Below are positions 2,125 to 60,643 of a stretch of DNA of 64,000 bases, in pieces. The stretch's first letter is position 1; each line of letters opens with the position of its first letter. The DNA is taken from NCBI RefSeq assembly GCF_003073045.1, contig NC_037596.1, forward strand, positions 30,636,184 to 30,700,183, written 5' to 3'. A model generated the notes under the pieces. It made no database searches, was not told the origin of the DNA, and was given only the letters and a program-made list of their open reading frames with translations. Origin of the DNA: Pomacea canaliculata (taxonomy: Eukaryota > Mollusca > Gastropoda > Architaenioglossa > Ampullariidae). The position numbers and the translations under genes are program-made.

Positions 2125-3434
2125 TTTTCATCGTATTGAGGACAATGTCTCCAAAAGTCAAAATCTACACCATGGGGTGTGTTATGTTTAGTATTCTGGC
2201 CATTGTACTGGAGCAAACATCAGGTATGCACCATTACAAAGTTTTTAGCTTTACACTAGTTAAGACTTATACTCAATATGTTACATTTACTTACTAAAGT
2301 GGTATATGGATGCATATGTAGCCACTTAGCAGCAGTGGAAAATGTATCAATATTTTAAAAAATTATATATTGGTGTCAATAAAAGTATTTCTCGTGTGAT
2401 TGATTTACTTCTTTACATGCAAGAAGCCACCCCGCTTGAAGTCACTAAACTAGTCGATTAACCATCTAATGTAATACGTTATTAACTTACTTAAAAGTGC
2501 AAACTGCAGTAAAGAAAAATATAACACAAAATTTAAATAATTAAACAAGTTACAAAAATAGTTTAGCGACAACTTCAAACAAAACCAACTTACTTGAAAA
2601 TCCACTAAGTTCATATTTTATTAATAGTGAATTTTAATTTAAAAACAGACATCACCTAAATGAGAATGATTTCTAAGTTTTCTTACTTTTATTTAAAGCT
2701 CTGAAGTAGTATTAAAAATACAGCACAAAAACAAATTTGCAAGGAATGTTTGATTTAGTTATTTATTACATGCTAAACTAAAAAGAATGATTTTTTAGAA
2801 TAAAAAAGGTAAAACTGGCGACAATCATTCCTATGATTACAATAATAGTTGACTCTTATTTCGAGTTGACAGGAGTGGAGATCTTAAACTGCGGTCCTGA
2901 TAAGCCCCTAGTAGTGGACGAAACCTCAACACATTTTGAGATAGAATGTGTGAACATCCATGACGGTTACGAGGTCATGTGGCACTTGAACTCTACGGAC
3001 GAGGACGGTGCCAGGGACATTTTGGCAGCATTTTGCTTAAGGATAAACAAGTGCTCATTCCCTACCATCTTCCTCAGCGCTCATTCAAACGCAAATAAAA
3101 TTGTGCTGAACGTTGCCAGCTTCCTAAGGTATTATAATCTCACTGGAATCACCTGCTCAGAACGCAACTGGTTTGACGTTGGGGAGAGTAGCTACACCTG
3201 TGGTGTACGCCTCCAGCGTAAGGTTTTCAAAGTTCTTGTTTTCATCTAAATTTAAATGTTTACTATTTACATTTTTTTCTTTTACAAAACAGTTGAAAAG
3301 ATGTGTGTTACAAGTGTTTGTGCGGAATAAGAGATCAAATAGATATTTCGCAGTAATATGTTATGCAGGAGTATTGTAGGTTTATACTTTTCTTGAATAT
3401 TGCAGCTCCAAAAATATGGCACAGACGTTACTAA
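2125..3434 (+). CDS. Gene A: secreted single-Ig protein (three exons)
   Basis: Coding exons are 2145-2223 (signal peptide, ATG 2145, acceptor for the leader at 2124/2125), 2873-3217 (Ig) and 3406-3434 (stop TAA at 3432). All joins are phase 1 with GT-AG sites, giving about 150 residues. The first 26 residues have a hydrophobic core of signal-peptide type ending QTSG. The Ig exon has Cys in strand A (ILNCG), Cys in strand B (IEC), Trp in strand C (VMW), an inserted Cys pair (FCLRINKC), Cys in strand F (GITC) and a last Cys in strand G (YTC). No transmembrane segment follows; the protein ends with a short basic tail (KIWHRRY), so secretion is expected. The Ig domain is the type 1 form seen in E, F and G. 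Function is unknown; an immune or recognition role is inferred only from fold and clustering. Splice joins are predicted, not proven. Confidence 0.72.
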
Positions 3435-3484
3435 GGGTGATGAACGATGGTTCCATGACTTCGCCGGTCACTAAGTCAGCAAAG

Positions 3485-3490
3485 AATAAA
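3485..3490 (+). terminator. Polyadenylation signal of gene A
   Basis: AATAAA lies about 50 nt after the stop codon of gene A, the normal placement for a canonical polyadenylation signal. Confidence 0.6.
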
Positions 3491-4955
3491 GGATTTAACA
3501 AGAACGATCAGTCATGTGATCTGGCTTTGACTTGCAGATGCTCTCTGCTTTTCTCTTTTTCGCGTAATGTTTATATATAATCACTTAATTAACTTTGATT
3601 TTACGACTAACATAAGCCTTACTGCCTATCAATATAAGTTAAGAGAAGTTTTTTCATCCAACAGTCTATTGATTTGTTGAAGAGTATTCACGTGGCTTCT
3701 TTGTTCTATCATGCTTTAATTAGATTAAAGTTTAATAAATTTACTTTGATAAAAGACTTCAAATTGTGTTCCTTCCATTTTGTAAAAAAAGGAAAATCAA
3801 AATGAAATTAAGACTGTAAACTAACCGTCAATGTTAAAGATACTAAAATCAATCTGATGCAATTAAAAAGTTGCTGCGTGTCATATCTTTTTGTAGCATT
3901 GGAAAAAAAAAATATTTGTTTCATGTAAAATTCAAATTTACAATACGTATGTATCTTATTTGCAAGTAATATGATAGTTTAATAAATAAAATGTAAATAA
4001 TAATAAAATAAACGAAATTATATCGCACCCATTTCCTATTTAAATTGGTATTGTAGAGAATTAATATTTCAATAATAATTCCATCGAATAAGAAAAAGCG
4101 AACATGATTAAAGAATTGTCATAATATACGACATATTTTTAATGTTTGCAATGATTATCTTCAGTGTAAAAACTATTTAACAAGCTAGGTAAGGCGTAAT
4201 CCATCTGATTTTATAGAGACAAAGGTAGATGCGAGTGTCTGCTTTTTTGTGTGATTGCGTGAGTGCGTGAACTCGTCTGTATTTGTGAGAGGACTGACTG
4301 ACTGATTCACTTACTCACCTATCCATCCACAGCCCTTTCCTCTCCATTCAACAATCAAGCTTTTATTTACATATATTTTTAGTTATACTTATATTTCTTC
4401 AATACGTACCGCATGGTCGAAATAAACGTCCGAGCTGTATATCAACATTATTATTATTATATGCAAAGGGAAGCAATCTCACTCCACAGGATTCATGTCT
4501 GATTGCCGCCCTTACCATCCTCAAGTGTTTGGGGCTGTTTTTTCAAATATCGGTAGATATAGGCGACACAATAAATAAATATATAAAACAAATTTTTTTT
4601 AAAAGAACTAACCTGTAAATTTTAGCCTCGAAGCGCATCCATTAATTAATTGTCCGCTTCGATTCGCACCTGCGATGAGCTAGCGCTAACAGTGTACTAC
4701 GTCACGTTAACGTCAGTTCACCTGTTACACGTTAGGCAGCAGGCAACACCACACGTTCACTGAGAGAGAGAAGGAGAGAAGTAAAAAAATGACTTTAATT
4801 CATCTACGGAGTATAGAAGTGCATGTTGCACGGACATGAGTGCTCTTGTAGTTGTTAGATAGCTACTCATCCCTAATTTCTGTTTTTCTTCACTATTCTA
4901 AAACACCAAGTTAAGGACACTCTGCTTGCTTTTAAGAAAGTTAAAGACTTTGTGT
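3491..4955. other. AT-rich intergenic stretch between A and B
   Basis: No ORF, exon-like segment or terminal repeat was recognised. The sequence is AT-rich, with a short purine-rich run near 4762-4790 and scattered homopolymers. Confidence 0.6.
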
Positions 4956-4962
4956 GTAGAAT

Positions 4963-5580: not shown

Positions 5581-6703
5581 GCTTGATTATTCAAAGGACC
5601 TATCCAATTGTTCCTAAAAGCGAGATGTACTCTAAAATGTTTGTTATCTTCAGTATTATGGTACTTTTCTTACTGAAGCAGTCATCAGGTATGTATGGTC
5701 AAATGTGAGGATACTTTCATGAGCAAACATGCTGCAATAGAAAAACATCCAACTACTTAGCAAGCTTACAAACTATATTCAAACAATTGTATTTAACATT
5801 ATTTTGAGTCTCAGTAAAAAAACTATAATCATTTCAACAATATATTTGCTAGGGTATTGGAAAATCCTCTAGTACTATTATAGGTAAAATGTTCTTTAAC
5901 TAAAATAATATCAGGAAAGAGGTTTATTAATATGTAGGAATATATTTTCAAACCTTTTTATCGTACAAATTTTGTTCATACATATAAAATTTACAAAATA
6001 GTATGAATTGGGTAGTAGAAAAATTCTATAATTGTCATCTTTTTATAAATGTCTACAATATAAATTATTAGTATAATATTATAATAAAGCATTTGTGCAT
6101 TTTGATTTTTAAACTTAATGACTTAAATCAAACTTCTTTAAGAATTATTCTTGTTTTATTTTTCTTAGGCACACCACACATGTCATGCAAAGTTACACTT
6201 GCACCGGAAACTGAAACAGGGTTAGGTGCATGTAATGTCACAGAAGTCCACTTTCATGGAGATCAGCACACATGCACGTGGTTTCAAACGGATGAGGTAT
6301 TAGAGTTGTAATCCTTCTGTTAATTTTATCATCTCTTAACTAAAAAAATAATAATTATCGTAACGAGGAATAATTACCTGCACATTAATTTCTCTTATTT
6401 TCTGTGATTATTTAAATGTAAACACGTGTAATATGAAAGAGAAATGTATTAGAAAATGTCTTTTTCAAACACTTTTAATTATTTAATTTACTCTTGGTGC
6501 CTCAGATCAGTAAACGGACGACAGAAATTGCTCGAAAAGTGTAATTAATTTGAAAGATCACGGCACCCACTTTAGTGGAACCTGCGCAGTAATATTCCGC
6601 ATCACCGACGATGTGTCGTTGAAATATGAGATACTTCTTCTGCCAGAGGGTCTTCGTGTGTAAGTAATATTGCTTTACTATGAAAACATCATCGTCACCA
6701 TCA

Positions 6704-6739
<36 letters not shown>

Positions 6740-7725: not shown

Positions 7726-7804
7726 ATTGGTACTACATGTACCCCATTTAGGTTACCACATGACACGTCGTCACAGATACATTAGCCGCAGCATCAACCG
7801 CCTT

Positions 7805-8418: not shown

Positions 8419-9706
8419 GCTTGATTATTCCAAGGACCTATCCAATTGTTCCAAAAAGAGAGATGTACTCTAAAATGTTTGTTATCTTCAGTATTATGGT
8501 ACTTTTATTACTGAAGCAGTCATCAGGTAAGTATGGTCAAACAGTAATTAAGTAAAATTTACACTCTATACGAATTATTGCTGTAATTACACATTTAACA
8601 AATTATCCCTTTAAAACTATATCTCTATCCACCTTTATATAATTAACCAGAAATGTTAGGACACCTTCATGAGCAAACATGTTGCAATAGAAAATCATCC
8701 AAATACTTAGCAAGCTTACAAACTATATTCAAACAAAAGTATTTTACATTATTTTGAGTCTCAGTAAAAATAATTTCAACAATATGTTTCCTAGGGTGTT
8801 GGAAAATCCTCTAGTAGGTAAAATGTTCTTTAACTAAAATAATATCAGGAAAGAGGTTTATTAATATGTAGGAATATATTTTCAAACCTTTTTATCCTAC
8901 AAATTTTGTTTGTACATAAAAAAATTTGACAAAATAGTATGAATTTGGTGGTAGAAAAATTCCATAATTGTCATCTTTTTATAAATGTCTACAATATAAA
9001 TTATTAGTATATAGTTATAATAAAGCATTTGTGCATTTTGATTTTTAAACTTAATGATTTAAAGCAAACTTATTTAAGAATTAAGATTTTTAAACTTAAG
9101 GATTTAAAACAAACTTCTTTAAGAATTATTCTTGTTTTATTTTTCTTAGGGACACCACACATGTCATGCAAAGTTACACTTGCACCGACAATGAATACAG
9201 GGATAGGACAGTGTGATGTCACAAAACTCCATCGTCAAGGAAATCCGTACACATGCACGTGGTTTCAAACTAATGAGGTATTAGAGTTGTAATCCTTCTG
9301 TTCATTTAACATCATCTTTTAACTTAAAAAATAATAATTTTCGTAAAGAGAAATAATTACCTGAACAGTAATTTTTCTTATTTTCTGTGATTATTTAAAG
9401 GTACACACGTGTAATATGAAAGAGAAATGTATTAGATAATATCTTTTCCAAACACTTTTAATTCTTGTTTACTCTTGGTGCCTCAGATCAGTAAACAGAC
9501 GAAAGAAATTGCTCGAAAAAGATTATATAATTTGAAAGATCACGGCACCCACTTTAGTGGTAAATGCGGCGCCTTATTCAGTATCACCAAAGATGTATCG
9601 TTGAAATATGAGATACTTCTTCTGCCAGATGGTCTTCGTGTGTAAGTACTATTGCTTTACTATGAAAACATCATCGTCATCATCGTCATCACCATCGTCG
9701 TCGTCG

Positions 9707-9769
<63 letters not shown>

Positions 9770-16003: not shown

Positions 16004-17438
16004 GCTTGATTATTCAAAGGACCTATCCAATTGCTCCAAAAAGAGAGATGTACTCTAAAATGTTTGTTATCTTCAGTATTATGGTACTTTTCTTACTGAA
16101 CCAGTCATCAGGTAAGTATGGTCAAAAAGTAATTAAGTAAAATTTACTCTATATACGCATTATTGCTGAAATTACACATTAAAAAATTAATCCTTTAAAA
16201 CTATATCTCTATCCACCTTTATATAATTAACCAGAAATGTTAGGACACCTTCATGAGCAAACATGTTGCAATAGGAAACCATCCAACTACTTAGCAAGCT
16301 TACAAACTATATTCAAACAAAAGTATTTAACATTATTTTGAGTCTAAGTAAAAAATAATTTCAACAATATGTTTGCTAGGGTATTGGAAAATCCTCTAGT
16401 GGGTAAAATGTTCTTCAATTAAAGTAATATCAGGAAAGAGGTTTATTAATATATAAATATACATTTTCAAACCTTTTTATCCTACAAATTTTGTTTATAC
16501 ATAAAAAAATTTGACAAAATAGTATGAATTTGGTAGTAGAAAAATTCTATAATTGTCATCATTTAATAAATGTTTACAATATAAATTATTAGTATATAGT
16601 TATAATAAAGCATTTGTGCATTTTGATTTTTAAACTTAATGATTTAAAGCAAACTTATTTAAGAATTTAGATTTTTAAACTTAAGGATTTAAAACAAACT
16701 TATTTAAGACTTATTGTTGTTTTATTTTTCTTAGGCACACCACACATGTCATGCAAAGTTTCACTTGCACCGACAATGAATACAGGGATAGGACAGTGTG
16801 ATGTCACAAAACTCCACCGTCAAGGAAATCCGTACACATGCACGTGGGTTCAAACTAATGAGGTATTAGAGTTGTAATCCTTCTGTTAATTTTATCATCT
16901 CTTTACTTAAAAAATAATAATTTTTCGTAAAGAGAAATAATTACCTGCTCATTAATTTCTCTTTTTTCTGTGATTATTTAAATGTAAACACGTGTAATAT
17001 GAAAGAGTAATGTATTAGAAAATGTCTTTTTCAAACACTTTTAATTCTTGTTTACTCTTGGTGCCTCAGATCAGTAAACAGACGAAAGAAATTGCTCGAA
17101 AAAGATTATATAATTTGAAAGATCACGGATCCCACTTTAGTGGTAAATGCAGCGCCATATTCAGTATCACCAAAGATTTATCGTTGAAATATGAGGTACT
17201 TCTTCTGCCAGATGGTCTTCGTGTGTAAGTACTATTTCTTTACTATGAAAACATCATCGTCATCATCGTCGTCATCGTCGTCATCATCATCATCATCGTC
17301 GTCGTCGTCGTCCTTTTTTTATTAGCTTTTGTGACATTTCTTTAATCAAACAAAAATTTGCAAAGAAATCTAAAGCCTAACTGTAAACATCTGTTTTAAT
17401 TTTTCTTAAGTACTGCACGGAAGGAAGTGTATGGATGA
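16004..17438 (+). CDS. Gene D: secreted single split-Ig protein (four exons)
   Basis: Exons are 16004-16111 (leader plus signal peptide, ATG 16048), 16735-16862, 17070-17224 and 17411-17438 (TGA 17436). Lengths and phases equal those of gene C, giving 124 residues. Differences from C are few: NQSSG in place of KQSSG at the end of the signal peptide, TCTWVQT in place of TCTWFQT, and KCSAIFSI in place of KCGALFSI. The four cysteines and the LLLPDGLRV end are kept. All splice sites are intact and the frame is open. It is the downstream tandem copy, separated from C by the Harbinger insertion. The few changes against C imply recent duplication or gene conversion. Confidence 0.75.
17256..17312. 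repeat. TCA/TCG trinucleotide array in last intron of D
   Basis: A short mixed array 30 bp after the exon 3 donor, the third instance at this intron position. Confidence 0.9.
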
Positions 17439-20106: not shown

Positions 20107-21386
20107 TCCACACTCTATGCTGTGCAAAGTTCTGGTGGAAGGAGATGTTTCCAAGGTTCAAGGCAGAAATACTTGCCACAGTGTGTGGAGCACTTGTCAT
20201 CATCGTGATGCTTGCTAAACCTTCGATGTATTATAGAGCAGCACCAAGAAGCAGTGTAAGCAATGTAATCGGAAAAGTCAGAACTTCATCTTGAATGCGC
20301 TGGGTGCATGCCTCTCAAGTAGATACAGATTTTGTAGATGTAGTAGAATTTATGACATATTTTTATATAATAAGGGAGACAACAGAAAGATATCTAACAT
20401 TATTATTTTCGCCATCCAAAGAAATAACTCGCATCATTTATTTTTAATTTTCTGAAAATAACTTATTGTAGACCTTTTCTTTCAGTTTAAGAAAATATTT
20501 TTGAGTTCAAAGTAAAGAGATATATTTCACAATCAGCAGGTTTAATCCCAGCAAATAGCTCCTAAGTATCATTAATTACATAACGATTCATTTATATATT
20601 TTATTAAACATAGAATTCAAGTGTTTCTCTTCTTTCCTGGTTTTACAACAATGTTTTGAAAAGATATACATTTAATAACTTTTTTTCTTTTTGTAAACAA
20701 AATAGATAGGAATAATTTATTATTAATAATGACTTTTACATGTCATAAAAATAACAATTCATTATTATGTGTTCACAGCCCTTAGGATCCTTGGCTGTGG
20801 TCTTAACAGGACCTTAGAAGTGGAAGGAGATGCTAAGGTGAATAATATCACTTGCACAGGTGTACCCAACGATCATTATGTCATGTGGTACATAAACTGG
20901 ACTGATACTCACGAAGTGAGATATGCAGGATACTGCCTCGACAAGTGCCTCTGTGCTCTGTCCTTTATTTCCATCGAAAGACCGAAGAAAAAAACTAGTG
21001 TTATTCGTTTATTTCAACATTTCAGGAAACGGGGCCTGTCTGGTATATCCTGTGTAGACTATAACAACAAAACTAAGATGAGAATACACTACAACTGCAC
21101 TATAAGGGTCAGAGGTAACTTGACTTTAGCTTAGTGGATAGTCTATGAGTGAGTGGCTAGTCTGCAATTAATTCTTCCAGTAATTACATGCCTTCCTATA
21201 GTCATTACATTTTCCTTGGTTTTAATAATAAGGGATTTTGTAGGTAAGGGCTTGAACCATGAGCTAACTATTGAAAAAGGGGTAAAGGTAGGTAAGGATT
21301 CGACCTTTGAGGAGAAAAAAGGAAAGTGTCGGGTCTTTGGGTTTGAACCTGGATCGTCTAAAAAGGAAGGATTTCACAAGAGGTAG
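20107..21386 (+). CDS. Gene E: signal peptide plus type 1 Ig, with a doubtful first donor
   Basis: Exon 2 starts at 20107 (acceptor CAG/TCCAC, as in F) with ATG 20145, followed by a hydrophobic stretch (ALVIIVMLAKP). The Ig exon is 20779-21114, phase 1 at both ends: ILGCG, NITC, VMWY, then YCLDKCLC, GISC and YNCTIRV. It shares RPKKKTSVIR and the GLSGISC block with F. A last exon 21244-21386 is open in phase 1 and ends FHKR and TAG; it is very rich in Lys and Glu and lies where F has its 72-nt repeat exons. The odd point is the first donor. F has CAG/GTACGT in phase 1, while E has CAGTGTAAGC, and using GTAAGC would put the join in phase 0 and break the frame. E may be damaged or use another site. 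Confidence 0.5.
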
Positions 21387-26721: not shown

Positions 26722-26899
26722 TATTTAGTCTGCATTTGTAAATACACAGTTTATTAAAAGAAATTGGTCTTTGATATTCAATCGTCTGTTTTTTTTTAAG
26801 CTGATGATTTCTTTTTCACCATCTAACTTGAAATCTGATCTTTCGAACCTGTCCAGCTTGAAATAATTCCCAGAACCATAAAGACACATTTCTATGATA

Positions 26900-44084: not shown

Positions 44085-46445
44085 AGTCACCTGGTTCAAT
44101 AGTTGTTGTTGATGGAGAGGAAGAAGGTAATGCTGAAAGACAAAATCATTTAAAAATAAATATGATCAATATTGATGATAAGCAGTCCATTACATTCATT
44201 TGAACTCGATGACAACCCAAAAAGATGTTGTCGGAAATATCGGAACTGTAATTTACACTTGATTGTGAAACAATCGTATTGTCTCAACTCTCGATTTTGA
44301 TCATGATTTTTGTGTGTGCACATTTCCCTTCGCGTCAGCTAGCAGATACAACCAGGTAATAGTTTTACTTAGAACTCTCGAATACGTTTTTATTAAAAGA
44401 ACACTTTGCTAGTTAAAATATCTCAGAAATATCAATATAATTCTCTTAGTTGTTTTTCAAGCATATGTAATGGTAGTTAGGTGTGCCCGTCCGGCTGCAA
44501 AGAAGGAAAGTTAATGGAGAGGAAGGAAAGAAAAAGAGAAAGAAATGAAAGAGAGCAGTGAGAAATCAATCTTTTTAAATTCTTTTTTTATGATAAAGGA
44601 CTGTGCTGGTTTTAAAAGAAATCCAACAATAGTTAACAAGAAATCAAACTAGAAATAATCGAACAGCAGCCTGTATGTGTTCTATGATCTTTTCAGTGTC
44701 TTCTATTTTAAACTTAATTTCATCTTTTACTGAAGGTTAGTAACAAGATCCGTAATACCGAAGTAGCACCATTAAAAAAATACAAATTTAACCAGAGTAC
44801 CCCCCAGCGTGCTCGTAGTTTGCAAAGTTAAAAAAGGCTACAGTGTGATAATAATGGGGATGAAGGATATTTTATAGTTTAATGAATTTTATGTCAATGA
44901 CAGTTACTAATCTTTTCATGTTTATAATGATATTAGATCACAGTTTAAAAACTTTTAACCATCAGAATGACATGGAAGGCAAAACAATAGTCCTAAAGTA
45001 TTAATTATTGTTTAAGCTTGCAGAAATGTTTATGGACATCAAGCAAATAATGATTGTTCTGTTTAATAAATTTTAAACATAATATGTATCTTTCTTTCGA
45101 GACAGAATAATAAATAATTTAGAGATTAAAAAAGCTTTCGAAAACATCCTTTTCCACAAAGCAAATCACTGAAATTGGTAGAATCACCTAAAGTTATTTA
45201 GATTTTGCCAAGAATTTGAGTATAGAGGCGAGTAAAGGATGAGAGGTTACAGGAGAAAAGACTTAAATACTTAGAGAAGACAGTTTTATTTACTGTCTTA
45301 TTTAATTAAACACAGCTCGGTTCAAAACTTAACTTTCAAGCATGAATTTCACTTCAGTAAATAGAAAGAATTAAATCAATTGTTACAAGCTTAACAAGAT
45401 AAAATACCAAACAAAATATTGAACACATGGCATAATGTTGCTATTACTTATTTGTTTTAAAATTTTACTGTCTTATGTGGATGTAAAATTATTATTTAAG
45501 TGACAAAACTCACCAAAGCTGAGAGGCTGGCAAACGGCAGGTGACCCAGTTAAACAGTTTGTATTGCAAGATAGCTTTCCTCCGTCATGTAAAGATGTGT
45601 TTCCCAAAAAGTTTAGCTGGTAGGTTTTAAAATCAGAATCAGAGGAGACACAACCACAGGTCATTCCATCTGCAGGCTGTTGATTACATGGGCTAGAAAA
45701 ACTGATCCGACATGGAGTAGTAGGAACTCCGACATTGCTTACAAAATCAAAGAAAACAGAGGTATAATTACACGCCGATGTTTGAACTATACAGTTAAAC
45801 TTTACTATGGATCCTTCTTGAAGAAGCGGGCATGATAGTGATATGGCTTCACTCGTGCCATCTGTAACAGATCAGTAAGTATTATTGTAATATCGTCTCA
45901 ACACAAATTTTGATCTTGGAATATGTATGATTTATTTAAATGCTTTCGTAGTCGACTGCTCCCAAACCCGTCTGCTGTCTAATTCTTTTGTCCGCCACAT
46001 GCATAAATTACAGGAAGATAAAGCTTGTTTTACGATTGCTTCTCAAAGCTGACAATAAAAGATATTTCCATTAGTGTCAGCATATTCATGTAAGCAGGCT
46101 GTGTGCTAGTGTCTGTACCTTATACTTAAAAATATTCGTTATTATTGATCTTGTTTTGTTCACTATCTCTGATTATTTTTCGATATTTAGCTATAGCTCA
46201 ATATCTTTCTAAATCTCTCTCTCACACACACATCTCTCACACTCATAAACTTACACAACCACGGAGCATACACTTGACAACTGCCGATAGTAAAAACCAG
46301 ACACCGAGCCTAACAAAAGGTATGCTCCTTAATATTTACGAAAGAGAAATACACAAGAAACATTACCTGAAATAAAGTTCATCAAAATCAACAGTAGAAC
46401 TAGTGGTCTAGTCTCCAGGCACACTGATTTTACTGCGGGCGCCAT
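44085..46445 (-). CDS. Gene J: signal peptide, cysteine-rich Ig domain and Ser/Thr stalk
   Basis: On the - strand, exons are 46445-46367 (ATG 46445), 45861-45514 and 44132-44085, all phase 1. The first exon encodes a signal peptide with a leucine-rich core (LVLLLILMNFIS). The second is a 116-codon Ig-like domain rich in cysteine (LSCPLL, KFNCIV, TCGCVSSD, YQLNF, LSCNTNC, AVCQP), less typical than those of A to H. The third is short and Ser/Thr-rich (LPSSSPSTTTIEPGD), like the stalk exon of K, but its donor GTTTAT is weak. No own membrane exon was found; splicing over the first exon of K into the K stalk and membrane exons would keep the frame. It is divergently oriented to gene H, with 1.6 kb between the two first exons. 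A CACGTG E-box lies at about 46515. Confidence 0.55.
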
Positions 46446-48073: not shown

Positions 48074-51000
48074 ATGTCAACGCTAATTGGATTGATTTGT
48101 TTACTATTTATCAGAGCCACACACGGTAGGGGTCTTTCGTTTACTATAAGTAAATATACATTAATGTCTGTGTCTCTAAATGGTTAAGTGGATGATGAGC
48201 TTCTGTGTGTGCGTACGTGCATGTGCTTACGTAGTATGTATGTGTGAGGCTGTCAGAAATGGAGCTCCGACATGCGCTAGTTTTGTTTCTGTCTGCAAAA
48301 TCGCATAAAGTAAATGATTTGTGTATCTGACTTATAATTTCTCCCTGTTATCGTGTTTTGTTTTGTTGTTGTTTTATGCTTTTTTTAGATGCAGGGCATC
48401 TTGCAGTATATCTTTCTGGTTTGCGAGGTTTGGTGTTTTCTGTTTTAGTTCACAAGATTTCTTCTTGTGGAATTCGCTTTGTATTACTCCCCTCTCTCTC
48501 TCCACGCTGTTCATGTCAACCTCTGTGTACCGTTACAGCATCCATATGGTGATAGCGGTACGATCACATCAGCTATGTCATTCTGAAGCAAGAAAAGTGT
48601 GTTACCTTTCAAAAAATTATAAACTCTGACTTAATCGCCAGCCTCTCAGCCTTCTACTGCTGACAGCACAGTTAAATGCATCTATATTATCTAAGGATAT
48701 AGAATGTTTCTGCCGTTCCTTTTCATCGGAGTATAAATCAGACTATAATGTTTGATAGGACATTAATGATGTTTGAGCACGTAAGAGGTAATGAGAATAA
48801 CCCGATTGGAAACACGATTCTCACTCTTGAAACTACATTGTTAATTGAGAAAGGGGAGGTAACCAATAAGAAAACTGTACTGTTGTGTGAGCTAGAGCTG
48901 CCTCCCTTTAACATCATCGCCAACCGGGAGCAACTTACTAGCGCGATATTAACTTTTACGTATTAGAAAGACTTCAACAGTGCAGTCACCGAGAGTCGAT
49001 GAGAGCTTTTGGAATTTTCAACATTTAGTAATAACATCCTACAGAGGTTAGCAAAATCCTTTGAAAGACTTCAAAGAAGACGGTGTGGATATTGTAGTTT
49101 CTGACATCACTGTTTTACACTACGAAAAGCAGTCAACTGGCTTTATAAGGCCCGCGGGCCGGACGTTACCCACGCATTCTGTACAGGAATTCAGCAGTGT
49201 ACTACATTTTCTGCCTCTCGACCCGTATGATTTGAGTGTGTTAGAGGAAGTTGTTTACTCAACCGTCAAACTCCACCCTTTGATTACGCATAACCTCTGT
49301 GTTTTGACTATTATAACATGACATCAACGGGCAAAAGCTTTCCGAAATAAAGTTCCGACTAGACTCTAGGGTTTTTAACGTTTTACCGTTTTAACGAACG
49401 GACCAACTCATCGGCTGCAGTTTATTTGGAGAGGAATAACGGGGCCACCAAGCTCATTGAAAGGACAATGGATATTTACCCCAGAAGAGACCCATGCTCA
49501 ACACCTAGGTAATTAAAAAAAATGTAGATGTCTGTGAATAATGGACGGCCCTAAAGAAAAAGAAAAAAATAACCCTGAAGCAGCTTCCAGGTACAAAGCA
49601 GTACAGTGCAACATTAGGAAACGGATAATGGCAGCTAGGGAGAACGGGATCTAAGACCAAAGCTGAACTATTGCGGAAGGAATGAGAGGAGCCATCACAA
49701 GGCATACCAACTACTCAAGACAGATACACAACAAAATCGAAGAGCAATGGCCCCCTTCTTACGGTGATCACAGTATGATGCAAACCAATCGACTTAATAT
49801 TTCAACGACCTGCACAACTTCTAGCTGACGAAAGACAATAACATCCTTCAAAGGAGTTTGACTAAGTCCCAAAAAATCTACGAATCCGTCAGTCCTACGG
49901 AAAGAGGATGAGAGATTAGTAAACAATTTGAAGGGAGAAAACTACATGGCGTTGATAACGCTCTATCCATTTTGTTACACTAAAGCAGAGTGCAAAAATA
50001 CCTGTGAAGAATAGTACAAAGAATGAATGAAATAACTAGTTATACTTCTTTAAAAGTCATTTATACATAGGGCATCGCTCAGCATCCTATGTGATATTAT
50101 TATTATAATTTTTATTGAATTAGGTACGAGGCCTACAATGACACTTTTATTACATTGTTTACTCTGTGCTGTTTCAGTTGACTCACAGTCACTGTGCGAT
50201 TCCAGTACTTACCTGGAGGTAAAAGAAGGCCGAGGCAACACGTTTGTCTGTACAGGGCTAGTAGCAACACAAAACGTCTACTGGTGGTGGAGATCGGAAC
50301 CTATATCTACCTGTGATCCAAGCTGCAGCAACGACAGGCGCCCTGAATTCTTCCAGATCAGCAGAGCTTCACCGACATCAAGTGACATCGCAGTTTATGT
50401 CACCGCATTCCCTGATTTAAATTATTTAGCTACAACTGACCTGTCCTGCCAGCAGACGTCAAGGGTGACTTGTCAGCTGGATGTAGTATGTAAGTATAGT
50501 TTGACGATTTGAGCAAGCGTTCTCGTACACACGTTACTCACACACACACACACTCGTGCCCACGCACACTAAAAATAAGACTATTGCTTCACTACTCTTA
50601 ATAACTTTACCATGGATTAAAGATGGGTGTAAAATGTAGTATCATATCATTTATCCATGTCTTTGCTTTAGTCTTGGGTGATTCCTAAAATTTAATGTAG
50701 GGTTAGGGTTAGACTATACCAAAGAGCATTTTTAACATGTGAATAAAGGAAGTCTGTATGAAGGTCAAAACCTGACAGTGCAAAGGAACACACTTATCAT
50801 CCTTTCCATATGTCTGGGACTTGTGTCCGGCCAAATTTATTCGGCTTTGTTTCTCACTTTGAAATGGTAGCGGGGAAATGGAAGAGCAAAGGGTATGCCC
50901 GGATGGTGGTTTACTGGGTGAACTGTTTTTTGCGATGTTGAATTGATGTTTTTGATGTCGCGTCACATGTCTTTCCTCGGAGAATGGTGGCAAAGCTAGA

Positions 51001-54000
51001 AAGATATATATATATATTTGTTCCCACCTGGGCTTTACACCTGTCATGGTAGCGAGTGAGATCAAATGGGGTTAATTTTAATGTTGGAATACGGGATACA
51101 GATTTTCGAGAACGTTCAGCCGGCGAACGGATAAACAGGGTGAGTTTGAAATGGATGGGGAGTCTCCGAGATGAGAGAGAGAGAGACAACTGGTGTAGGA
51201 AACTGTCTGAAATATAACATAGAAGTGGATAAGAAAGTGACTGTGTGTTATGACGGGGGTATGATGAGAGTGATGTGTAGATTTTCGTCATTTACGCAAA
51301 GGGCGGAGTTAAGCTACTGTCTGGTTCTTCGCTATTGTAGAAGTGTGTTCTCTCTGGGTGGATTCAGTTACATGCCATACTGCTGACTATGGAGTATTTG
51401 AACAGTGTCTTACCTCCTTTGACTGTGACTGTATATATGTAGAATTCGTATTAATACCATAGCTCGGGTGGGGTCTCGTACCTCTTTACCTTTGCTTTGT
51501 GCTTTCTCTTATGCGGCAATGACCCCATGGGATTTGTGTAGAATACGCATATATGCACTAACACTTATTATGCTTATTTCATTTTACCTTCGTATTATTT
51601 TTTATTTGTTTGGCAATATATTGCTGTTTTTGACAGCTTGAAGGCTCTTGTTTGTGAAGTCTAGAAAAACTATGCGAATGACTCTGTGCGGTGTGGAACA
51701 CCACTGAAATGTTCTTGACACCATACATCTTATTACAGTCATTGCAAAATTGGTAAAGACATTGACTAGTCAGAAGTAAGTAGAACTAACGCTTTTCACA
51801 GCATCAGCTGAACGGTTTGTTGAAAGACATAAATAAGCAAATGGATCACAAGTTCTGGCGCAGATTATTGACTTGCATTTTTACACTTTTCATTTCATCA
51901 TTACACATTGAAGAGCCAGGCAATCTACAGCATGATAGAGACCGCGTTATTTCTTTGTTAGCTGTCTCACGAGCAATGTACGTATTACTGCCATTGTATA
52001 AAATATCTGATCAAATCATGTTCACGTCGATCTACAATGTCATTGTTATTATACACAGTTTCAGGCACTTTAGCCATCCTCGTTCTATGCCTCCTTCCCA
52101 TTATTGTCACATTATATATATTTTTTTCTTTCTCGATGTGTGTGTGTGAATGCGCGTGTGATTAAGAGCGCTCCTGCAAATGCAACGAGTACGCACAGTC
52201 TCTTTCTTTCACCGCCGTACATATAATTATTTACAGACCCTGCTGAGAATGCCACATGCCAGATTCAGTTCAGTGGAGACACATGGGAAGTAACTGGCTC
52301 GTGTGCTGTTCCCAAGGCCCGGTCAAGGAGAAACAGATATTTGTGTTATGTATACCAGACTTCACAGGTAAGCTTTTCTTACAAATTGTTTAATACTTTT
52401 TCAATTGTTTCTCCTATGCCCAACTTTCCCACAAATTAATGTCATGACTGTTTTCTCGAAAATTACTGCCTTTTCTTACCTTATCCAAAGAAGTCTCACT
52501 GCCTCACAACCCACAAAACCGGTTTTGAATTGTTTCGCTATTACCACCACAGTGGGTATAGGCACTTTTATCATCTATCTCTGTATATTCGCTTAAACAG
52601 TAAATAAACATCAAATCCATGGGCGATTTTACGCTCAACACCTTAATTTTATTCCTTGAAAGTTTGAGAATACAAGAAGTCACGTTATTAAAGTAGAGAT
52701 TTGTTTTCCTACTTCTACCATTTGGTTATTGTTTATTGAATATTTCTTACACAGTTTACTGTAGCTAACAGTCGTATTCTTTTAAAATTTAATGCCTAAT
52801 GACTAAATATTGTAATTATCATAACACATCTTATGCATGTTAATATATCTGAAGTTACTCCATGAGTTGTGTTACTTTCGTTTAAAGGAAAAGAAGATAC
52901 ATGAATGTTTTACATGTGTTTATTACTTAAAAACCTCTTTATGTACCGTTTATGTGTCAGCAACAACTTACTTCTTTGGTGGGAAATTTTACAATGAAGA
53001 CTGATTCGGGAACTAACTATGCTTCTGGCAACTGTGAAATTAAGATTACTCTTCCTCCAGAAGGAAAGTACAACTACAGTGTCATCATTATACCTGGTGA
53101 AGTACGAGTGGTTCCTTCCTTTAATGGAAGTAACGAAATCAGTGAGTTGAGTGCTTTGTTTAGACATTATGTCTTTGCTATTTTTTATTTGATTAGTAAA
53201 TTGTATGAAACTTTCAGTGATATTAGACATATCTTGAGTTTTTAAACAGGTCAATTTCTTTCAGTTACGGATATTTGTATCTGCTATGTCATCTATATTT
53301 TTATTTAGTGATATAAAAACCATACCTTTTGTTACATTTTATAAACATTGTTACATATAACCCCGTAAACAACTTGCATACGGCAAGGTGTGCAACAGTT
53401 TAGTAACCACTAAGATAATAGCCCACACCTAGTATTCAGGTGAACCCATAGTATTTTACAGAGTGTTGAACTGTTGTTGTACATTAGCCATACAACTCCG
53501 GTTAGCGGTCTCTAAATCTGTCATGTTTTGAAGTAATTCCTGCTACAAACCACATTAAATTTAACTACCAATCTTACTGAGATTTAAGAATAATGTACAC
53601 CATGATAATATATTTTTATTTTAGGACGTCCATCTAAGCCTCCTCACACAACTGTCCGCAGTATGTAACAGAGGGTGAGGACATAGACTGTCTGTGCTAC
53701 TCCGATGACCTGGGACTTCCATCTGGTTCTCTTGTCTGGAGAGGCGCAAGCTCTTCGAGGCTCAAGATCGACAAAGTAAACAGGTCATACAGTGGGACAA
53801 GCAATACGTGTAACTTGACGTGGAACAAAAATGCTGTACAAAGTACACAGTACACAGTAACAGTAAACTGTAAGTTTACTTTGGAAAACGTCATTTATAT
53901 AGTTCTTGTCTTTACCCTTGCTTGGGATGCAAGTTTTATTCATTTTACGTTTCTCTCTTTAACCTGCGTCACTTGTTCGTGTGATATGTATGAAATCTTT

Positions 54001-57000
54001 TGTATTTTGCTGTTTCTGATGTTTCATTATGAAGTATATCTTGTTGTCATGTATCATGTATGTGTCGTATTTTTTTCATTATTTACAACGCTATTTACTT
54101 TTGCCTGAGAAACATCTACAATTTTTTTATCATAAAGTAATCACAATAAAGCCAGAACTCATTTATTTTACAATGTATTGCTCATTCCTTAATCGAAATA
54201 GCACACCTATTTATATGTGTCCTAGTTGTTCTTGGAGAAAAAATTTGACAACAGCAGAGTTACCCAAAGAAAACTAAGCACAACAGACGCCAATTTCTGG
54301 CTTTCTTGTACTCTAATAATATTTTCCTGACTAGGGATAACAAATAATTCGCAAATTACTTGGTTCTATTCTTACCAAATTAATTGATGTTGTAACTATA
54401 TTTTTGTATTAGATAAGTGTATTTTTTACTTTAATACCCATTCCACTCCCCGAGCATCATTTATGGGGATGAGCTTACTGAAAACAGAAATGTTCATTGT
54501 CATTGTACCTAATATTTATAACGGTTCTTGAAAGTTTGTTATTCAGGCATAACTTATAGCAGGTGATGCTTTAACCAAGTTTAAATGCCTTGTTCTTTTA
54601 CTGGTCAAAATTATACTTATTAAATTTATCGATTTAATACGAACGCTACTTTGGATTGCATAAACAAACGCGTCGATAATTTAAGTATAAACATTTTTTA
54701 ATTTACTTATAAACATTTGTACTTATTAAAAGTTATTAAAACTTTAAAGTGTCGCTTATTTAGTACGCTTTTAATGATGCCACATTTGTGGGCTTCTTTT
54801 TCTATTTACATAATATACTAAAATAACATAATCATACTTATTCAAACGTCGTCACGAATAAAATGTTTTATGAATTTTCTTTTTAGATGCATCCCGAGTG
54901 CTGAAAGTTTCAAGATTGGTGACAAAGAAGACGCTGTTGTAAATGTCACAGAAAACACAAATGTGTCCGTAGTTTGTCAAGCTGAGGGAAGACCACTGCC
55001 AACAATAAGTCTCTTTAGAAAGGGCAACGACAACCTAACTCAGAACCTATTTGTGGCTAATAATAAGTCGGACCTGAAATATACTATAAATGTTGTAAAC
55101 TGTGAAGCAGCATACAACTACTTTTGTAAATCAGAAAACAGTATTTCTGCGGACCAAAGAAATATACTTCTGATTGTTTTGTGTAAGTATTATTGTTTTT
55201 TTAAGTATTTTTCAAGAACTAATTTTCCTACCAAAATGCTTATTAACACTATTGTTATTTTAAGTGTAGTTACAACTTTAATTATTATTGATCTATTTGG
55301 GTTTTTTTTCTATAATATTTGGATATCAGAGACATTTGACTTATATTCACTCATTTGTTTATTTATTGTAGTACTTTTAGTTTTTAATGTCATGCATTTA
55401 TTTAAATAAAATTTAGATACATTAAGTGTACAAATAAACAGTTATATAGCATAATTATTTTCAAGAAAAAACTAACTGAAAGTCCTAAGGTATTATTGAC
55501 ACTGAATTCACATAATCCTTCGTGGAGAACTGCTCTGAATAAACCACTAATAATTACAATACCTTTGAGCACCGAACAAGCTGAACAAGCTGTATGTTAG
55601 AGTTTTCCGGGCTAGCAGGCATTCATTGTGAGTCACACTTTCAAAAAAGATGAATGTCACAAGTGTAAAAGGACTTGAAGAAAGAAATATCGTTTTATCA
55701 AACCGGACTTGACCGAGTTTCACACTTACAATACTGCACACTTGGAAGCTCCAGACTGATAAATGCAGGTACGCTGTTGAAGCAAACCTTGTAGTCAACC
55801 TAACAAAACAAGTCACAATCGAAAGAAGGAAACTCCACTGGTTATACTACTAAGACAAGTAAAAGAACTCTCTGGAGCATTGCTGCTGGGACAACTTGGC
55901 ATATGCCGTGTCGGGATTCGTCATTTTCTGTCATTATACGAACAATCGTTGCAATTTCTGTCAGCATCACAGCTAGGTCAACAACAAACCTGAATTAAAA
56001 AGTCACTTCTAAAATAAGAAAGATGCCACAGCTTTAGAACCCTCGACACGATGCACACGCCTACAGTTTCTTTAATGAACGCCAGTTGTTGGTATATACT
56101 TACAGAAAACATGCTGTCTTAAATTGATAGACTAAATACCGGAAAAAGCGATGGAACAAAAGAGATACCTTCTAGTCGCCTACTTCTAAGTAACTTCTAG
56201 CAAAAGTATGAAACGGTCTAGAAATAGAACAGGAACACAGAACTTCGACTATTTGGCGGATCTCTGTTAAGGTTTGATTTGCGTTAGGCAATTGACATTC
56301 TGAGATCAAATACTGTATTAATGATGAGATTTATTATAGAGTATCTATTTGACAAGAACTTCCTCATCGCATGCAGAGAACCGACAGAGTAAGATTCTAT
56401 AAGATGTAAACTAAGCTTACAACAGAATGTAGTGGTGAAGAGCAAAGAAAAGTATACATAAAACAACAATAAATCACTTTCTTTAACTACCAGCGAGCTG
56501 CTCTCTCAAAAATTGCATTTCCGCAGAAGTGCGTAGACCAGGATTTCAAAAGTCACAGCGACTTTACTGAGGAAAAAAATGATTTAGCACTAAATGTCTA
56601 GTGACGCCTCGTGTGTTGGCACTTTATCTAAGACCATCATTCAGAGGGCTCATGAAAAAAGGTGATGAAATGTCAGTATTCGGAAAAAAAGGACTGGCTA
56701 AATCATTAAGAAGAGGACAAATCTTCTAGCGCTAAACGTGTTTGCCACCTCTCACCAGAGGTCTCTGCGAAGAACATTGTCAGTCACTGTACTTATCTAG
56801 TCTCCTCCTCCCTTCTTTCCTTTACCAGCCACACTCCAGAGACTAAACTGGAATAGAACTGAATAACAGATTGCGATTTTTTTAGTTGATGCAGAACTGT
56901 CTTTAAATGTGTAAATACGTATTTTTTTCTTACCATACTCTTCTTTATAGTTGTAGTAACGGAGTCTATTTGAAAAAAAAAATTACAAAACCTTTTTTTC

Positions 57001-60000
57001 AGGAAATTAAAATAAAAAATCCAGTTTATATCTTTGTCATAAGAAATGAATATTTTTAATGTTCCATAACTAACAATCATATTTATTATTTATTTAGTTT
57101 AACTGGAGTTTGTAGTTGTGCTTATTTGACAGGTTCTCCTAAGAAAACTTCGAACGACTCCTATTTCACAACGTTTGTGGATGGCCAAGCCGGTCTGACG
57201 TTTAAAATGAATGCTTACCCTCCACCCAATCTGCTAGGAGTAGTTTACAACGGATCAGCAAATAATTTCATCTCCAGTAAATCTGAATATGAGAACAGTG
57301 TGAGGTCTTCTTGTTCATCTGATACATCGTACAGCTCTATGATTACTTGCACGGTGACTCTACTAAACCAAACCATCTACACCCCCTGGGTTTTACACCG
57401 TTACTTTCAGCAATGATCTTGGAGACATTTCATTCGCGTTTGAAATCAAAGAAAAATTACTGCCAACAACAAAAGCAATGGAAATAACAGGTAAGGGTTT
57501 AAGTATTATTGTTAAACGATATAAAATTTAATTGCATTGATATATACGCACATAGTCTATGCTGGTTTGTAAACGTTCCTCTGCATCCTTTGCAAGCGAC
57601 CGAATACTTTACATTGTACGTTTCATTTTAATACAGATATCCTATTTCATCATTACTATCCCTTTAGTCTGTTGAGTGCGCAGGTTGTTAAACAAGCAAA
57701 AAATCTTTTACTGTAACTAAAAATATATTTTTATTAAAATAAAAACAAACAAGGAATGAATACTTTATCAGAAACTGTTATGAACAAGTTGACTATTTTT
57801 TATTTTCCACAGACTACAAAATAATACACAAATATAAAGACTGCGGTTTATTTAATCTTTTGGCTACTTTAAATATAAAAGATATTAAAACATTTATATT
57901 TTTTAAGTTTTGTCTCCGTGGTTTTCGCACTGTTCCGACCACTACATGTATGTCACTTAAAAATGAATTACTTTCACGATAAACGTGACATACAGTTCTC
58001 CAGCATCCCGAGAATCTTTGCTTTTTTTGAAAGCAGATTCACCTGGTCCTGTAACAGGACCTATTGTTGGAGGAGTTATTGGAGGAGTAGTTTTTCTTGC
58101 GCTGATTGTAGCCATTATCATCTTTATTGTTCGACGAAAAGGTTAGTAATATTTTTTTAAAAAGCAGAAGATTTAGGCAATAGTTATTGATACTTATTCT
58201 AAAATATTGATGTTCGTACCTGCCTTTTTTTTCTTTGCTTATAATCTAATGCGTAATCTAAGGTATCAATGTAAAAAATGCTTTACATTCACTGATTACT
58301 ATTTTAAAATGTTATATTGCAGTAAACGTAAAAAAAAATAGCTAGCTAGAATATTCTTGCCAAAAAAATCAATGGTCGCTTAACGATAGAATCGTATTTT
58401 ATTTATGATTAAAAAAACGTTTATCATTCACAGGAAAACGTAACAAGGGCCCCTCACTGTGAGTACTTTTGCATTTATTTTTAGTTTGTTACTTATTCTC
58501 ATTTTAATAAATTGTTGTGTCTAAAAGCAGATTTTAAGACGTAACATGAATTTATTTACATTGTCATTACATTTGTTGAGACTATAACAATGTAAAAAGT
58601 TAAGAGTTTCACTAGATTTCTAAGTGAATGGTTGGGCTTTTCTTTATCAACTTTTATGCGCATTTTAAGCAGATATCTCTTAAATTGTTTTTTGGCAGAC
58701 CGAATAACGCTGTGGAAGAAGACTTTAGTGAGGAACAAAGTCAGTATCTTTATACTCACACACACGGAAAGAAAGAGAGAGCGTAAAAGAAATAGAAACA
58801 GTATTTTTTTCTGAAATAAACGTTCCTAAAAAGAATTAGAAATACTAGAAGAATTCACATTTTAAAAGTGTTCTTTATTGAAATATATTTTTTAGATTGT
58901 ATATATATATAAGATGTATGATACTTATTGCTCAGTATAATCCTGCACATATAATTCAGTGTACGTTATGCTTTAAAAAAATTATTAGCAGTTCAAGCTA
59001 AATCTAGCAAGAGTTCATGGACTTGTACACTCTTTTTATGTCAGATAATAGTGCAGAAACACCAAAGGAGGTGTATGCCATCGTCGACAAGAAGGATCCA
59101 AAACCGACTACAACCTCGACGATGACGGACGTGTATGCTGATGTAGTCAAGAAGGGAAAAGAACGCACTGAACTCGACTTAGTCCCCTCAACACTTTCCA
59201 CAACACCTGAGGATGCGGCAAAAGATAAAAAAGGAAAAATCAGCAAGACACATGGTAAAGGAAAAAAGAAAGGAAAAGGTATTTAACAGCTTTCGTTAAC
59301 TTTCAGTACAGTATTTTTCAGTTGTTTAGTCTTTCTAGTCATAAAGATTAATGTAGGCTTGGAATTGAAGACACTGTAAAAAAATGTACTTTCCCTGGGT
59401 GGCCACTTGAAGAATATCTATTCTACATCATTTTAAGCCAACCGTTGGTTATAAATGTGTGTGCTTCATTCTTGATTCCATTTGATTTACCTTAACCTGG
59501 TATGTCAAACTGTTTGTAAGTAAAGAACAATTTGCTCTTCTCGTTCATGTGTGTCCGTGTATTGAAGCGTCCTAATTATTGTAAGCAGGTGTATTACTGT
59601 CTAACAGTGCTTGTCTTTGTATCTTGATCCCAAGTTACTTTATGTGAAGTTTATTTAGTTACTTTGTGGTCAACTTAATAAGTAATGACATTTTTGTTTT
59701 ATCAAAAAGGAGACAAAAAGCCATTGTCTGAAAAGAACACATGGTATTAAAGGCGGAGGTAAGGAAACAACAGTTCTTACCACCCTAACTTTATATTACA
59801 GTATTCTTGAGACAGCGTACATATTGGTGTCTTCGTGTTTGCTTTCTGGTAGGCATTAGTCATGTTTTGTAAAAAGACACACATGTAAGTCAGTGTCTGT
59901 TTAAAAGATAAACTACCAAACTCAATGTTGTGTCTTTATATAAATCATTTCCATGCATAATTTAAGAAAAAAATGTATATTTGGAGATCTATATTTGTTC

Positions 60001-60643
60001 CATCAGGTGCCTTGTCAATGTCTCCAATGGCAGAATCTGAGTACGAAAACTGTGGGTTCGATGACAAAGAACAAGAAAAGGTAGGTGCTGTAAACATAAA
60101 GAATGGGTTTAGAATGAGAGACCGAAAGACATTGTAAACATAAAAGAGAAAACTTTTTTTACCGTAAATAAAAAAATTCTATCATATTCTATCAATTCCA
60201 GCTTTTCAAGTGTTATTTGTGAGCTGCTAAGACGCATTAATCGCAGGAACCAAATATTGTAATAATAATATTTGACTGCACGCGTTAAATGTAAATAGTT
60301 AACATAGTTTACATATACTGAATCTGTGAGGTCTACAAATGCATGGAAAAGTAATGCGAATGTTATCTTGAAATGTGTTTTAGAAAACTCAGTCATAAAT
60401 AAGTAGACATTTTTCAGAAAAAAAGTATTACATCTTAAACAAAGCTTTTGAGAGAAAAACATAAAGCATTAACTGCATTTCAGGAAAGAAAAGGAGCAAA
60501 AGAAATCCAGCGACGAGGCCAGCAAGGTCTCAACTACACCACTGTCGTGTTTGGCAACCCCACGGTCACACCCAACACCACCACCAGTATCGGAGCCCAC
60601 TGAGTATGCTGAAATAGTTCCACGACAGAAGCCTACAGACTAA
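48074..60643 (+). CDS. Gene H: type I membrane Ig receptor with a tyrosine-motif tail
   Basis: Exons: 48074-48125 (signal peptide, MSTLIGLICLLFIRATH), 50178-50489 (Ig 1), 52237-52367 and 52961-53141 (split Ig 2), 53625-53869 (Ig 3), 54887-55182 (Ig 4), 57133-57490 (Ig 5), 58037-58141 (membrane), then tail exons 58434-58458, 58699-58739, 59045-59278, 59710-59758, 60007-60080 and 60484 to 60603 or 60643. Ig 1 keeps the type 1 features (VCTG, VYWWW, STCDPSC, LSC, VTC). Ig 2 has TCQIQ, GSCAV, YLCYVYQT, the phase 0 intron, then GNCEI and YNYSVIIIPGEVRV. Ig 4 is a standard I-set-like domain (SVVCQAEGRP, YNYFCKSEN). The membrane exon gives GGVIGGVVFLALIVAIIIF followed by RRK. The tail has VYAIV, VYADVV, YENC, LNYTTV and TEYAEI. 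Ig 3, Ig 4, Ig 5, the fourth tail exon and the last exon each need a one-step frame change, although splice sites are intact. A signalling receptor, possibly inhibitory, is inferred from the tail. Confidence 0.7.
48620..49500. other. Unassigned part of the first intron of H
   Basis: Two open frames (48748-48966 and 49061-49321, + strand) have no recognised domain and no good splice context. They may be remnants of an unknown element. Confidence 0.35.
49540..50025 (+). mobile_element. Fragment of a LINE-type retrotransposon ORF (tentative)
   Basis: In the first intron of H, a frame with several stops reads RYKAVQCNIRKRIMAAREN, then TIAEGM and RQIHNKIEEQW. This resembles the linker before the reverse-transcriptase domain of some LINE proteins, in which lysine-rich helices such as KxVRKKIRxAKExWI are typical. 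No reverse-transcriptase catalytic motif was seen, so the assignment is weak. The copy is old and truncated. Confidence 0.35.
55430..57110. other. Intron between Ig 4 and Ig 5 of H
   Basis: A 1.95-kb intron. The part 55540-56780 is somewhat richer in G and C than the rest and may contain an old repeat, but no ends or protein were recognised. Confidence 0.4.
58037..58141 (+). other. Transmembrane exon of H
   Basis: A 105-nt exon, phase 1 at both ends. It codes a short linker (DSPGPVTG), about 22 hydrophobic residues rich in Gly, Val and Ile, and a basic stop-transfer RRK. It has the same layout as the membrane exon at 62849-62992. Confidence 0.8.
60484..60643 (+). other. Last tail exon of H with two tyrosine motifs in different frames
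   Basis: In the frame set by the previous exon (phase 0) it reads through GQQGLNYTTVVFGN and ends at TGA 60601. One base over, the frame is open to TAA 60641 and contains SEPTEYAEIVPRQKPTD. LNYTTV fits the ITIM pattern (I/V/L/S-x-Y-x-x-V/I/L) and TEYAEI fits the ITSM pattern (T-x-Y-x-x-V/I). TEYAEIVPRQKP also resembles EVYAIVDKKDPKP of the third tail exon, which suggests it is real coding sequence. Confidence 0.6.

Follow-up and report, generated by a model that had tools for sequence, protein, structure and literature searches.

A 64,000-nucleotide stretch of the Pomacea canaliculata genome (contig NC_037596.1, here C7, positions 30636184-30700183; hereafter the window) raises the question of how a run of small secreted immunoglobulin (Ig)-type genes is related to the tyrosine-motif membrane receptor, gene H, that lies beside it, and what such a locus might do. 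The window spans the border between the upstream, secreted half and the downstream, receptor half of a larger Ig-type complex, and ends about 220 kb before the end of C7 (30,920,076 bases). Our best reading, to which we give slightly more belief than doubt, is that of a gastropod paired-receptor complex accompanied by an array of secreted V-set proteins, in which receptor tails bear either an immunoreceptor tyrosine-based inhibitory motif (ITIM) plus a switch motif (ITSM), or a pair of tyrosines resembling an immunoreceptor tyrosine-based activation motif (ITAM). The structural part of this reading is well supported, and the immune and signalling part is what we infer from it. Motif names and patterns follow general usage.

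Both halves are built on a domain 1 (D1) followed by a domain 2 split over two exons (D2a and D2b), and this module is nearly confined to C7. Across the 440,159,624 bases and 24 contigs searched, C7 holds 42 of the 46 matches in one D1 search, 30 of the 32 in the other and 46 of the 48 for D2a; the eight matches off C7 have E values of about 0.05 or worse. Within C7:30580001-30840000, which was read in pieces, a D1 profile locates 11 secreted-type exons (one partial) at 30.611-30.667 Mb and 10 receptor-type D1s at 30.686-30.831 Mb, namely those of H and of R2-R10 (R8 and R10 on the minus strand), so that at least nine further receptor-type genes follow H. Additional receptor-type D1s lie at 30.876 Mb and, interrupted by a stop, at 30.911 Mb; a second cluster of them occupies 1.98-2.76 Mb. 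D1s closer to the secreted type, judged on their D1 exons, occur at 9.68-9.72, 10.28-10.30 and 27.2-28.1 Mb; five open copies at 9.7/10.28 Mb are near-identical. The clusters at 2, 9.7, 27-28 and 30.84-30.92 Mb were read only in part. As a separate observation, near-identical D1-D2 gene copies stand in opposite orientation at C7 9.69-9.72 and 10.276-10.292 Mb, about 0.6 Mb apart, perhaps through an inverted duplication.

Gene H had been described from the sequence as a five-Ig membrane receptor. A receptor locus of five ectodomain units is indeed present at 48.07-60.64 kb, but the assembled sequence loses its reading frame in Ig4, in Ig5 and in the last exon of the tail; the conserved signal exon listed here is a correction to that description. 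Its exons (nt, nucleotides) are as follows.

48074..48125, plus strand: signal exon, about 2 kb before D1 and kept in five other receptors (R2, R3, R4, R5 and R9)
50178..50489, plus strand: D1 exon, 84% identical to that of R3 and 70% to that of R2
52237..53141, plus strand: D2a (52237-52367) and D2b (52961-53141)
53639..53869, plus strand: Ig3 exon, 75-77% identical to those of R2, R3 and R5
54887..55182, plus strand: Ig4 exon of 296 nt, Pfam Ig_3 at E 5e-8, frame broken at the exon start with respect to its relatives
57133..57490, plus strand: Ig5 exon of 358 nt, in two frames
58037..58141, plus strand: transmembrane exon, 71% identical to that of R6 over 31 residues
59008..59283, plus strand: open frame for part of the cytoplasmic tail, containing EVYAIV and DVYADV and having relatives in R6 and R7; exon ends approximate
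60007..60643, plus strand: last tail exons, with SEYENC at 60007-60080 and, from 60484, LNYTTV (ITIM-like) and, in another frame, TEYAEIV (ITSM-like)

Neither the Ig4 nor the Ig5 exon of H is a multiple of three in length. The Ig3-Ig4 join is in frame, at phase 1, in R2, R3, R5 and R9, and H carries two extra bases there; the Ig5 exon of H matches R3 in two frames; and a phase-0 join into the last exon gives LNYTTVVF followed by a stop 16 residues later, with TEYAEIV in a different frame. H may therefore be a recently broken copy or may have been hit by assembly indels, which are indistinguishable here. Among its five ectodomain units Pfam recognises only Ig4 as Ig, and the Ig status of D1 is taken from a structural model of the gene A D1 (see below). 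About 2 kb past H, at window positions 62758-63042 on the plus strand, lies a second transmembrane-like open frame (GAGLGAGLGLACVVVIVLAVIIVRLRK), for which no Ig exon was found.

The evidence that carries the paired-receptor reading comes from the tails of H and its downstream relatives. R2, R3, R5, R6 and R9 each show five ectodomain units by exon (Pfam sees Ig4 only), a transmembrane segment and a tyrosine-motif tail. One kind of tail, ITIM-plus-ITSM-like, is found in H, R6 and partly R7; in R6, LNYTIV and TVYAEI stand in one frame and fit the ITIM and ITSM patterns, and a third last exon of this kind, at 30.8947 Mb, aligns over both. The other kind, an ITAM-like YxxL-x10-YxxL, is found in R2, R3, R4, R5 and R9; its genome matches comprise five strong ones, all in this array, and a weak one elsewhere that contains a stop, and in R4 and R9 the match runs across a stop located after the motif. 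A relative of the ITAM-like last exon also occurs at C7 30778973-30779273, about 1.3 kb past the end of the ITIM/ITSM-tailed R6, as a relic or an alternative exon.

Related ectodomains on different tails are a hallmark of paired receptors. H and R3 have ectodomains that are near copies (dS, synonymous divergence, of 0.17 over 449 codons), yet their tails differ, the opposite sign of the two being read from the motifs. The transmembrane segment of H is closest to that of R6 (71%, against 57% for R3), and H is close to R2 in D1-Ig3 and distant from it in Ig4-Ig5. This mosaic divergence among the receptors is best explained by exchange between copies. The likeness to immune and allorecognition loci that had been noted for the window alone gains support downstream, where related ectodomains bear one or the other kind of tail; an immune function is putative.

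The upstream half had been read as seven plus-strand genes for small secreted or tail-bearing Ig proteins. Seven genes of secreted type are borne out at 2.1-31.9 kb; three of them, however, are tandem copies of a D2-only gene, one of these frame-broken. Signal peptides and short tail exons were called by eye.

2145..2223, plus strand: signal-peptide exon of gene A, with an open frame, splice sites and a phase 1 donor
2873..3217, plus strand: D1 (V-set Ig) exon of gene A, with BLASTP matches to the D1s of C, D and G and an AlphaFold model
3406..3434, plus strand: short tail exon of gene A, ending in a stop, with a phase-compatible acceptor, by eye
5625..6659, plus strand: gene B1, signal 5625-5688, D2a 6169-6296, D2b 6506-6659, by eye
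8463..9641, plus strand: gene B2, D2-only secreted, signal 8463-8526, D2a 9150-9277, D2b 9487-9641
16048..17224, plus strand: gene B3, D2-only secreted, signal 16048-16111, D2a 16735-16862, D2b 17070-17224
20145..21114, plus strand: gene C, signal 20145-20253 (weak donor gtgtaa), D1 20779-21114
22953..23752, plus strand: gene D, signal 22953-23058, D1 23405-23752
29849..31910, plus strand: gene G, signal 29849-29897, D1 30405-30767, D2a 31422-31549, D2b 31740-31910 with the stop

A, B2, B3, C, D and G are open in the exons read, with matching splice phases, and G is predicted to be a complete two-domain secreted protein; the last exons of C and D were not identified. The D2-only gene is copied in tandem at about 5.1-7.4, 7.9-10.4 and 15.5-17.9 kb (B1, B2 and B3). 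B1, whose D2a is 70% identical to that of B2, has a stop early in D2b (by eye). A Dscam-like set of alternative exons was considered for the three D2 copies and rejected, since each has its own signal exon. In addition, window positions 605-1827 and 26896-28900 share blocks in the same order at 97-98% identity, possibly a mobile element.

The D1s of A, C, D and G match one another (BLASTP of A against C, D and G: 3e-12, 2e-11 and 1e-8). The structure-based search that the sequence-only reading had proposed for domain 1 identifies the gene A D1, missed by Pfam, as a V-set match: its AlphaFold model, with a predicted local distance difference test (pLDDT) score of 82.8, has the V-set fold, the core cysteine pair and the tryptophan. 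A PDB sequence search with the D1 profile returned four matches, all haemagglutinin (best E 0.4).

Are the secreted proteins, then, soluble versions of the receptor? The reported identity of domain order and exon phases between G and H was confirmed by exon measurement. Eight genes (A, B1, B2, B3, C, D, G and H) had their signal exon measured or read, and in each it ends in phase 1; the D1 exons are all multiples of three (345 nt in A, 336 in C, 348 in D, 363 in G and 312 in H); and D2a runs from phase 1 to phase 0 over 128 nt in B2, B3 and G and 131 nt in H. Profiles built from one kind of D1 or D2a were run against 8,737 frames in search of the other kind, which avoids the circularity of a joint profile. 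A profile of the 18 secreted-type D1s finds 8 of the 13 receptor-type D1s at E < 0.01 and no other frame (H D1, 0.076), and the receptor-type profile finds 4 of the 18 secreted-type D1s at the same threshold, again with no other frame. For D2a the secreted-type profile finds 11 of 12 (H, 4e-4) alongside two other frames, of which one is a real D2a, and the reverse search finds 5 of 12. Compared profile to profile, the two kinds match with 96.8% probability for D1 (17% identity) and 97.1% for D2a. Because of these one-sided matches, together with the shared order and phases, a distant homology of the secreted and receptor D1-D2 modules is supported.

The common origin proposed earlier therefore stands as distant ancestry and fails as recent derivation from H. 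A tree was built from all of the 31 D1s except the partial one at 30.6259 Mb, leaving 30. In it the 13 receptor-type D1s form one group (support 100/99); the branch that parts them from the 17 D1s of secreted type or with unread gene ends measures 1.97 changes per site, and G groups with the 9.7/10.28 Mb copies (87/97), not with H; the tree is unrooted in effect, the program warning that long branches meet between the halves, and the long rows R4 and L018 are placed uncertainly. Since the receptor D1s stand apart and G joins the 9.7/10.28 Mb copies, the secreted genes did not arise recently as soluble forms of H, and a recent decoy origin was rejected on this tree; the secreted half is old, with a history of its own, and a direct H-to-G derivation is not supported. 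The suggestion that the secreted genes are shed or copied H ectodomains that block the ligand of H draws on the shared module order and phases of G and H and on the physical adjacency of the two halves. Set against the tree, in which the secreted D1s are an old and distant sister group, and the 19% identity between the D1s of A and H, it is weakened and we now regard it as improbable.

The ratio of nonsynonymous to synonymous divergence (dN/dS) over whole ectodomains is 0.48, 0.46, 0.52, 0.65, 0.66, 0.36 and 0.37 in seven receptor pairs, where R8/R10 is taken without Ig4 and H Ig5 only up to its break, and the pairs among H, R2 and R3 are not independent. For D1 by itself, the five closer pairs reach 0.72, 0.74, 0.87, 1.05 and 1.02, and the two distant pairs 0.38 and 0.67; D2a stays at 0.18-0.49 in all seven. 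In the three independent pairs H/R3, R6/R7 and R8/R10, D1 evolves faster than D2 (p 0.015, post hoc, the comparison having been chosen after the table was seen). Ig5 of R8/R10 gives 1.06, single-exon values being noisy. Among secreted D1s, gene A and its relative at 30.6317 Mb differ more at nonsynonymous than at synonymous sites (proportions pN 0.197 and pS 0.082; p 0.024, uncorrected), and A/30.6343 and 30.6317/30.6343 show no significant difference (p 0.75 and 0.18); positive selection on the gene A D1 is only suggestive. dN is below dS in the secreted D1 pairs C/D, 30.6227/30.6191, L010/L013 and L010/L011. Four secreted D2a pairs were compared: dN exceeds dS in B1/B2 (0.21 vs 0.18) and 30.6132/30.6202 (0.48 vs 0.35), and is not above it in B2/B3 and 30.6202/B2.

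A further family, absent from the sequence-only reading, accompanies the receptors. Its member in the window occupies the interval from G to H and is arranged head-to-head with H, 1.6 kb separating the two start codons:

45514..46445, minus strand: gene M1, signal exon 46445-46367 and cysteine-rich domain exon 45861-45514

Later exons of M1 were not found. Its domain has 32 matches in the genome, 30 of them on C7, and nine of these 30 have a D1 within 10 kb, seven head-to-head and two on the same strand as the nearest D1. The head-to-head partners are H, R4, R6, R8 and the D1s at 30.876, 2.669 and 2.704 Mb; these seven pairs are not independent, as the layout may be inherited by duplication. 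M4 shares its strand with R9 and precedes it by 5.8 kb. A transmembrane segment is part of the M3 frame itself, and M1, M2 and M4 have nearby hydrophobic frames, none conserved among the three. A single-sequence structure model of M1 has a pLDDT of 52, too low to settle its fold.

Taken together, these observations would fit the following scheme. An upstream tandem array encodes small secreted proteins made of a V-set D1, a split D2 or both, and a downstream tandem array encodes membrane receptors of five ectodomain units, the first two being a distant form of D1-D2. D1 would be the recognition end and the tails would set the sign, ITIM-plus-ITSM tails being inhibitory and ITAM-like tails activating, as their motifs suggest, with ectodomains exchanged between copies. 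Such an array could work as paired receptors, with haemocytes as their likeliest site, balancing activating against inhibitory signals from related ligands, and the secreted D1/D2 proteins may be soluble, opsonin-like recognition factors or ligands of the complex. The more specific version is a self/non-self or parasite-recognition complex, distributed over a single chromosome, of gene-converting inhibitory and activating five-Ig receptors, with head-to-head, co-regulated cysteine-rich partners and an expanding, fast-changing secreted V-set arm that has the recognition module in common with the receptors; this we put forward tentatively, as possible rather than probable. The apple snail is a parasite host, and the receptors would be candidates for the recognition of worms by the snail. 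If true, the presence of both kinds of tail in one molluscan array would allow a direct test of whether ITIM/ITAM balancing is an old animal strategy.

Several observations weigh against this scheme. Pfam gives nothing over the cut-off for D1, D2, Ig3, Ig5 or the M domains, and the Ig fold of D2, Ig3 and Ig5 is only putative. H is frame-broken as assembled. The diverged R4 reaches 34-49% in D1-Ig3, its D1 and Ig4 match only in part, and an Ig5-like piece with a stop precedes it; the tails of R8 and R10 were not found, and that of R7 only in part. The trend towards a fast D1 is countered by single exons such as Ig3 of R2/R3 (dN/dS 2.05) and D2b of R6/R7 (1.15), and pN significantly exceeds pS, uncorrected, in only one of the three secreted pairs around gene A. 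The ITAM-like spacer is 10 in R2, R3, R4, R5 and R9, the canonical range being 6-8; longer ITAM spacers do exist, e.g., in FcgammaRIIA. The second tyrosine of this tail (SVYQTL and similar) fits the ITIM pattern too, and ITAM-like pairs appear in 1.8-4.8% of shuffles of the four tails tested. Owing to the spacer, the ITIM-compatible tyrosine and the shuffle rate, the activating sign of the ITAM-like tail is a guess.

Some of the same facts could be read differently. Adhesion molecules account for many of the multi-Ig membrane proteins that bear Yxx[ILV] motifs, and the receptors might be adhesion or neural recognition proteins with generic tyrosine motifs and no immune role; tandem expansion, mosaic evolution, a fast D1 and two alternative tails would be unusual for such genes, and we judge this quite unlikely. 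The breaks in H and B1, and the stops in 16 of the 46 D1 matches (15 at C7 29.57-30.58 Mb, upstream of the cluster, and one on C1), recall a largely decaying cluster, with H and B1 as pseudogenes and with the secreted genes as birth-and-death fragments that have no present role. This is hard to reconcile with the open exons of A, B2, B3, C, D and G, with ectodomain dN/dS below 1 in all seven receptor pairs and with the five open, near-identical D1s at 9.7/10.28 Mb, which together leave it very doubtful.

An offshoot of the VIgL/FREP genes, with D1-D2 as the tandem Ig part of a FREP that has lost its lectin domain, is a further reading, which we think unlikely. In BgFREP two Ig domains stand in tandem at the N-terminus (PMC11999971), the Ig domains of VIgL genes are described as hard for InterProScan to detect (PMC9334734), as D1 and D2 are here for Pfam, and fibrinogen-domain exons cluster heavily on C7, at 1.97-2.66, 20.3-21.8, 27.6-27.8, 28.58-28.69 and 29.05-29.10 Mb. 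However, genes A, B2, B3 and G bear out the earlier statement that no standard FREP locus is present, since each reaches a stop without a lectin domain (by eye). Searches with PF00147 and PF00059 listed no match inside the window (150 of 481 and 150 of 360 candidates scored; no galectin search was made), and none of the three C-type lectin matches listed on C7 is near it. Two readable stretches upstream of fibrinogen genes (5.0 and 2.4 kb) contain no D1 or D2, and a FREP link by chromosomal position was rejected, these stretches not being FREP-like despite the fibrinogen clustering. Ahead of one fibrinogen exon, a long open frame (L049, 1236-2438) looks MACPF-like by eye. Like the gastropod VIgL, FREP and CREP proteins as described in PMC9334734 and PMC9178244, the secreted proteins here carry one or two N-terminal V-like Ig domains that domain software misses. 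Unlike them, the genes read to their ends here have no lectin or fibrinogen domain.

The paired-receptor reading can also be set beside systems of related layout. Paired inhibitory and activating Ig clusters are known in vertebrates, and other forms in tunicates and cnidarians. Unusual Ig genes with ITIM and ITAM motifs also make up the large Alr complex of the cnidarian Hydractinia, a family mentioned in PMC12065747. The open-access literature searched yielded no paper linking Pomacea canaliculata with ITIM and, for molluscs, described one five-Ig ITAM receptor, CgIgIT2 of the oyster Crassostrea gigas, which has five extracellular Ig domains, one transmembrane segment and a reported ITAM, is expressed in haemolymph and recognises bacteria (PMC11999971). 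By description, R2, R3, R5, R6 and R9 may resemble this molluscan receptor, having five ectodomain units by exon, of which Pfam recognises Ig4 alone, a transmembrane segment and a tyrosine-motif tail; CgIgIT2 is presented as a single receptor, the relevant section of that source mentioning neither an array nor an inhibitory partner nor a set of secreted modules in an array. The fester and FcoR families of Botryllus, in the fuhc locus, are Ig receptors that occur in clusters, bear ITIM or hemITAM tails and are encoded next to their cognate partners (PMC12065747), a parallel in way of working to the head-to-head M/receptor pairs; they differ in belonging to a tunicate, in having a V Ig, a sushi and two C2 Ig domains and, in some, in swapping motifs by alternative splicing. 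Vertebrate LILR, PIR and FcR-like genes (cf. PMC2413239) also place related ectodomains on inhibitory and activating tails in tandem arrays with exchange between copies. Relative to vertebrate paired receptors, the snail receptors carry the ITAM-like motif, with its spacer of 10, in their own tails, and the likeness is drawn on layout, with no claim to sequence homology.

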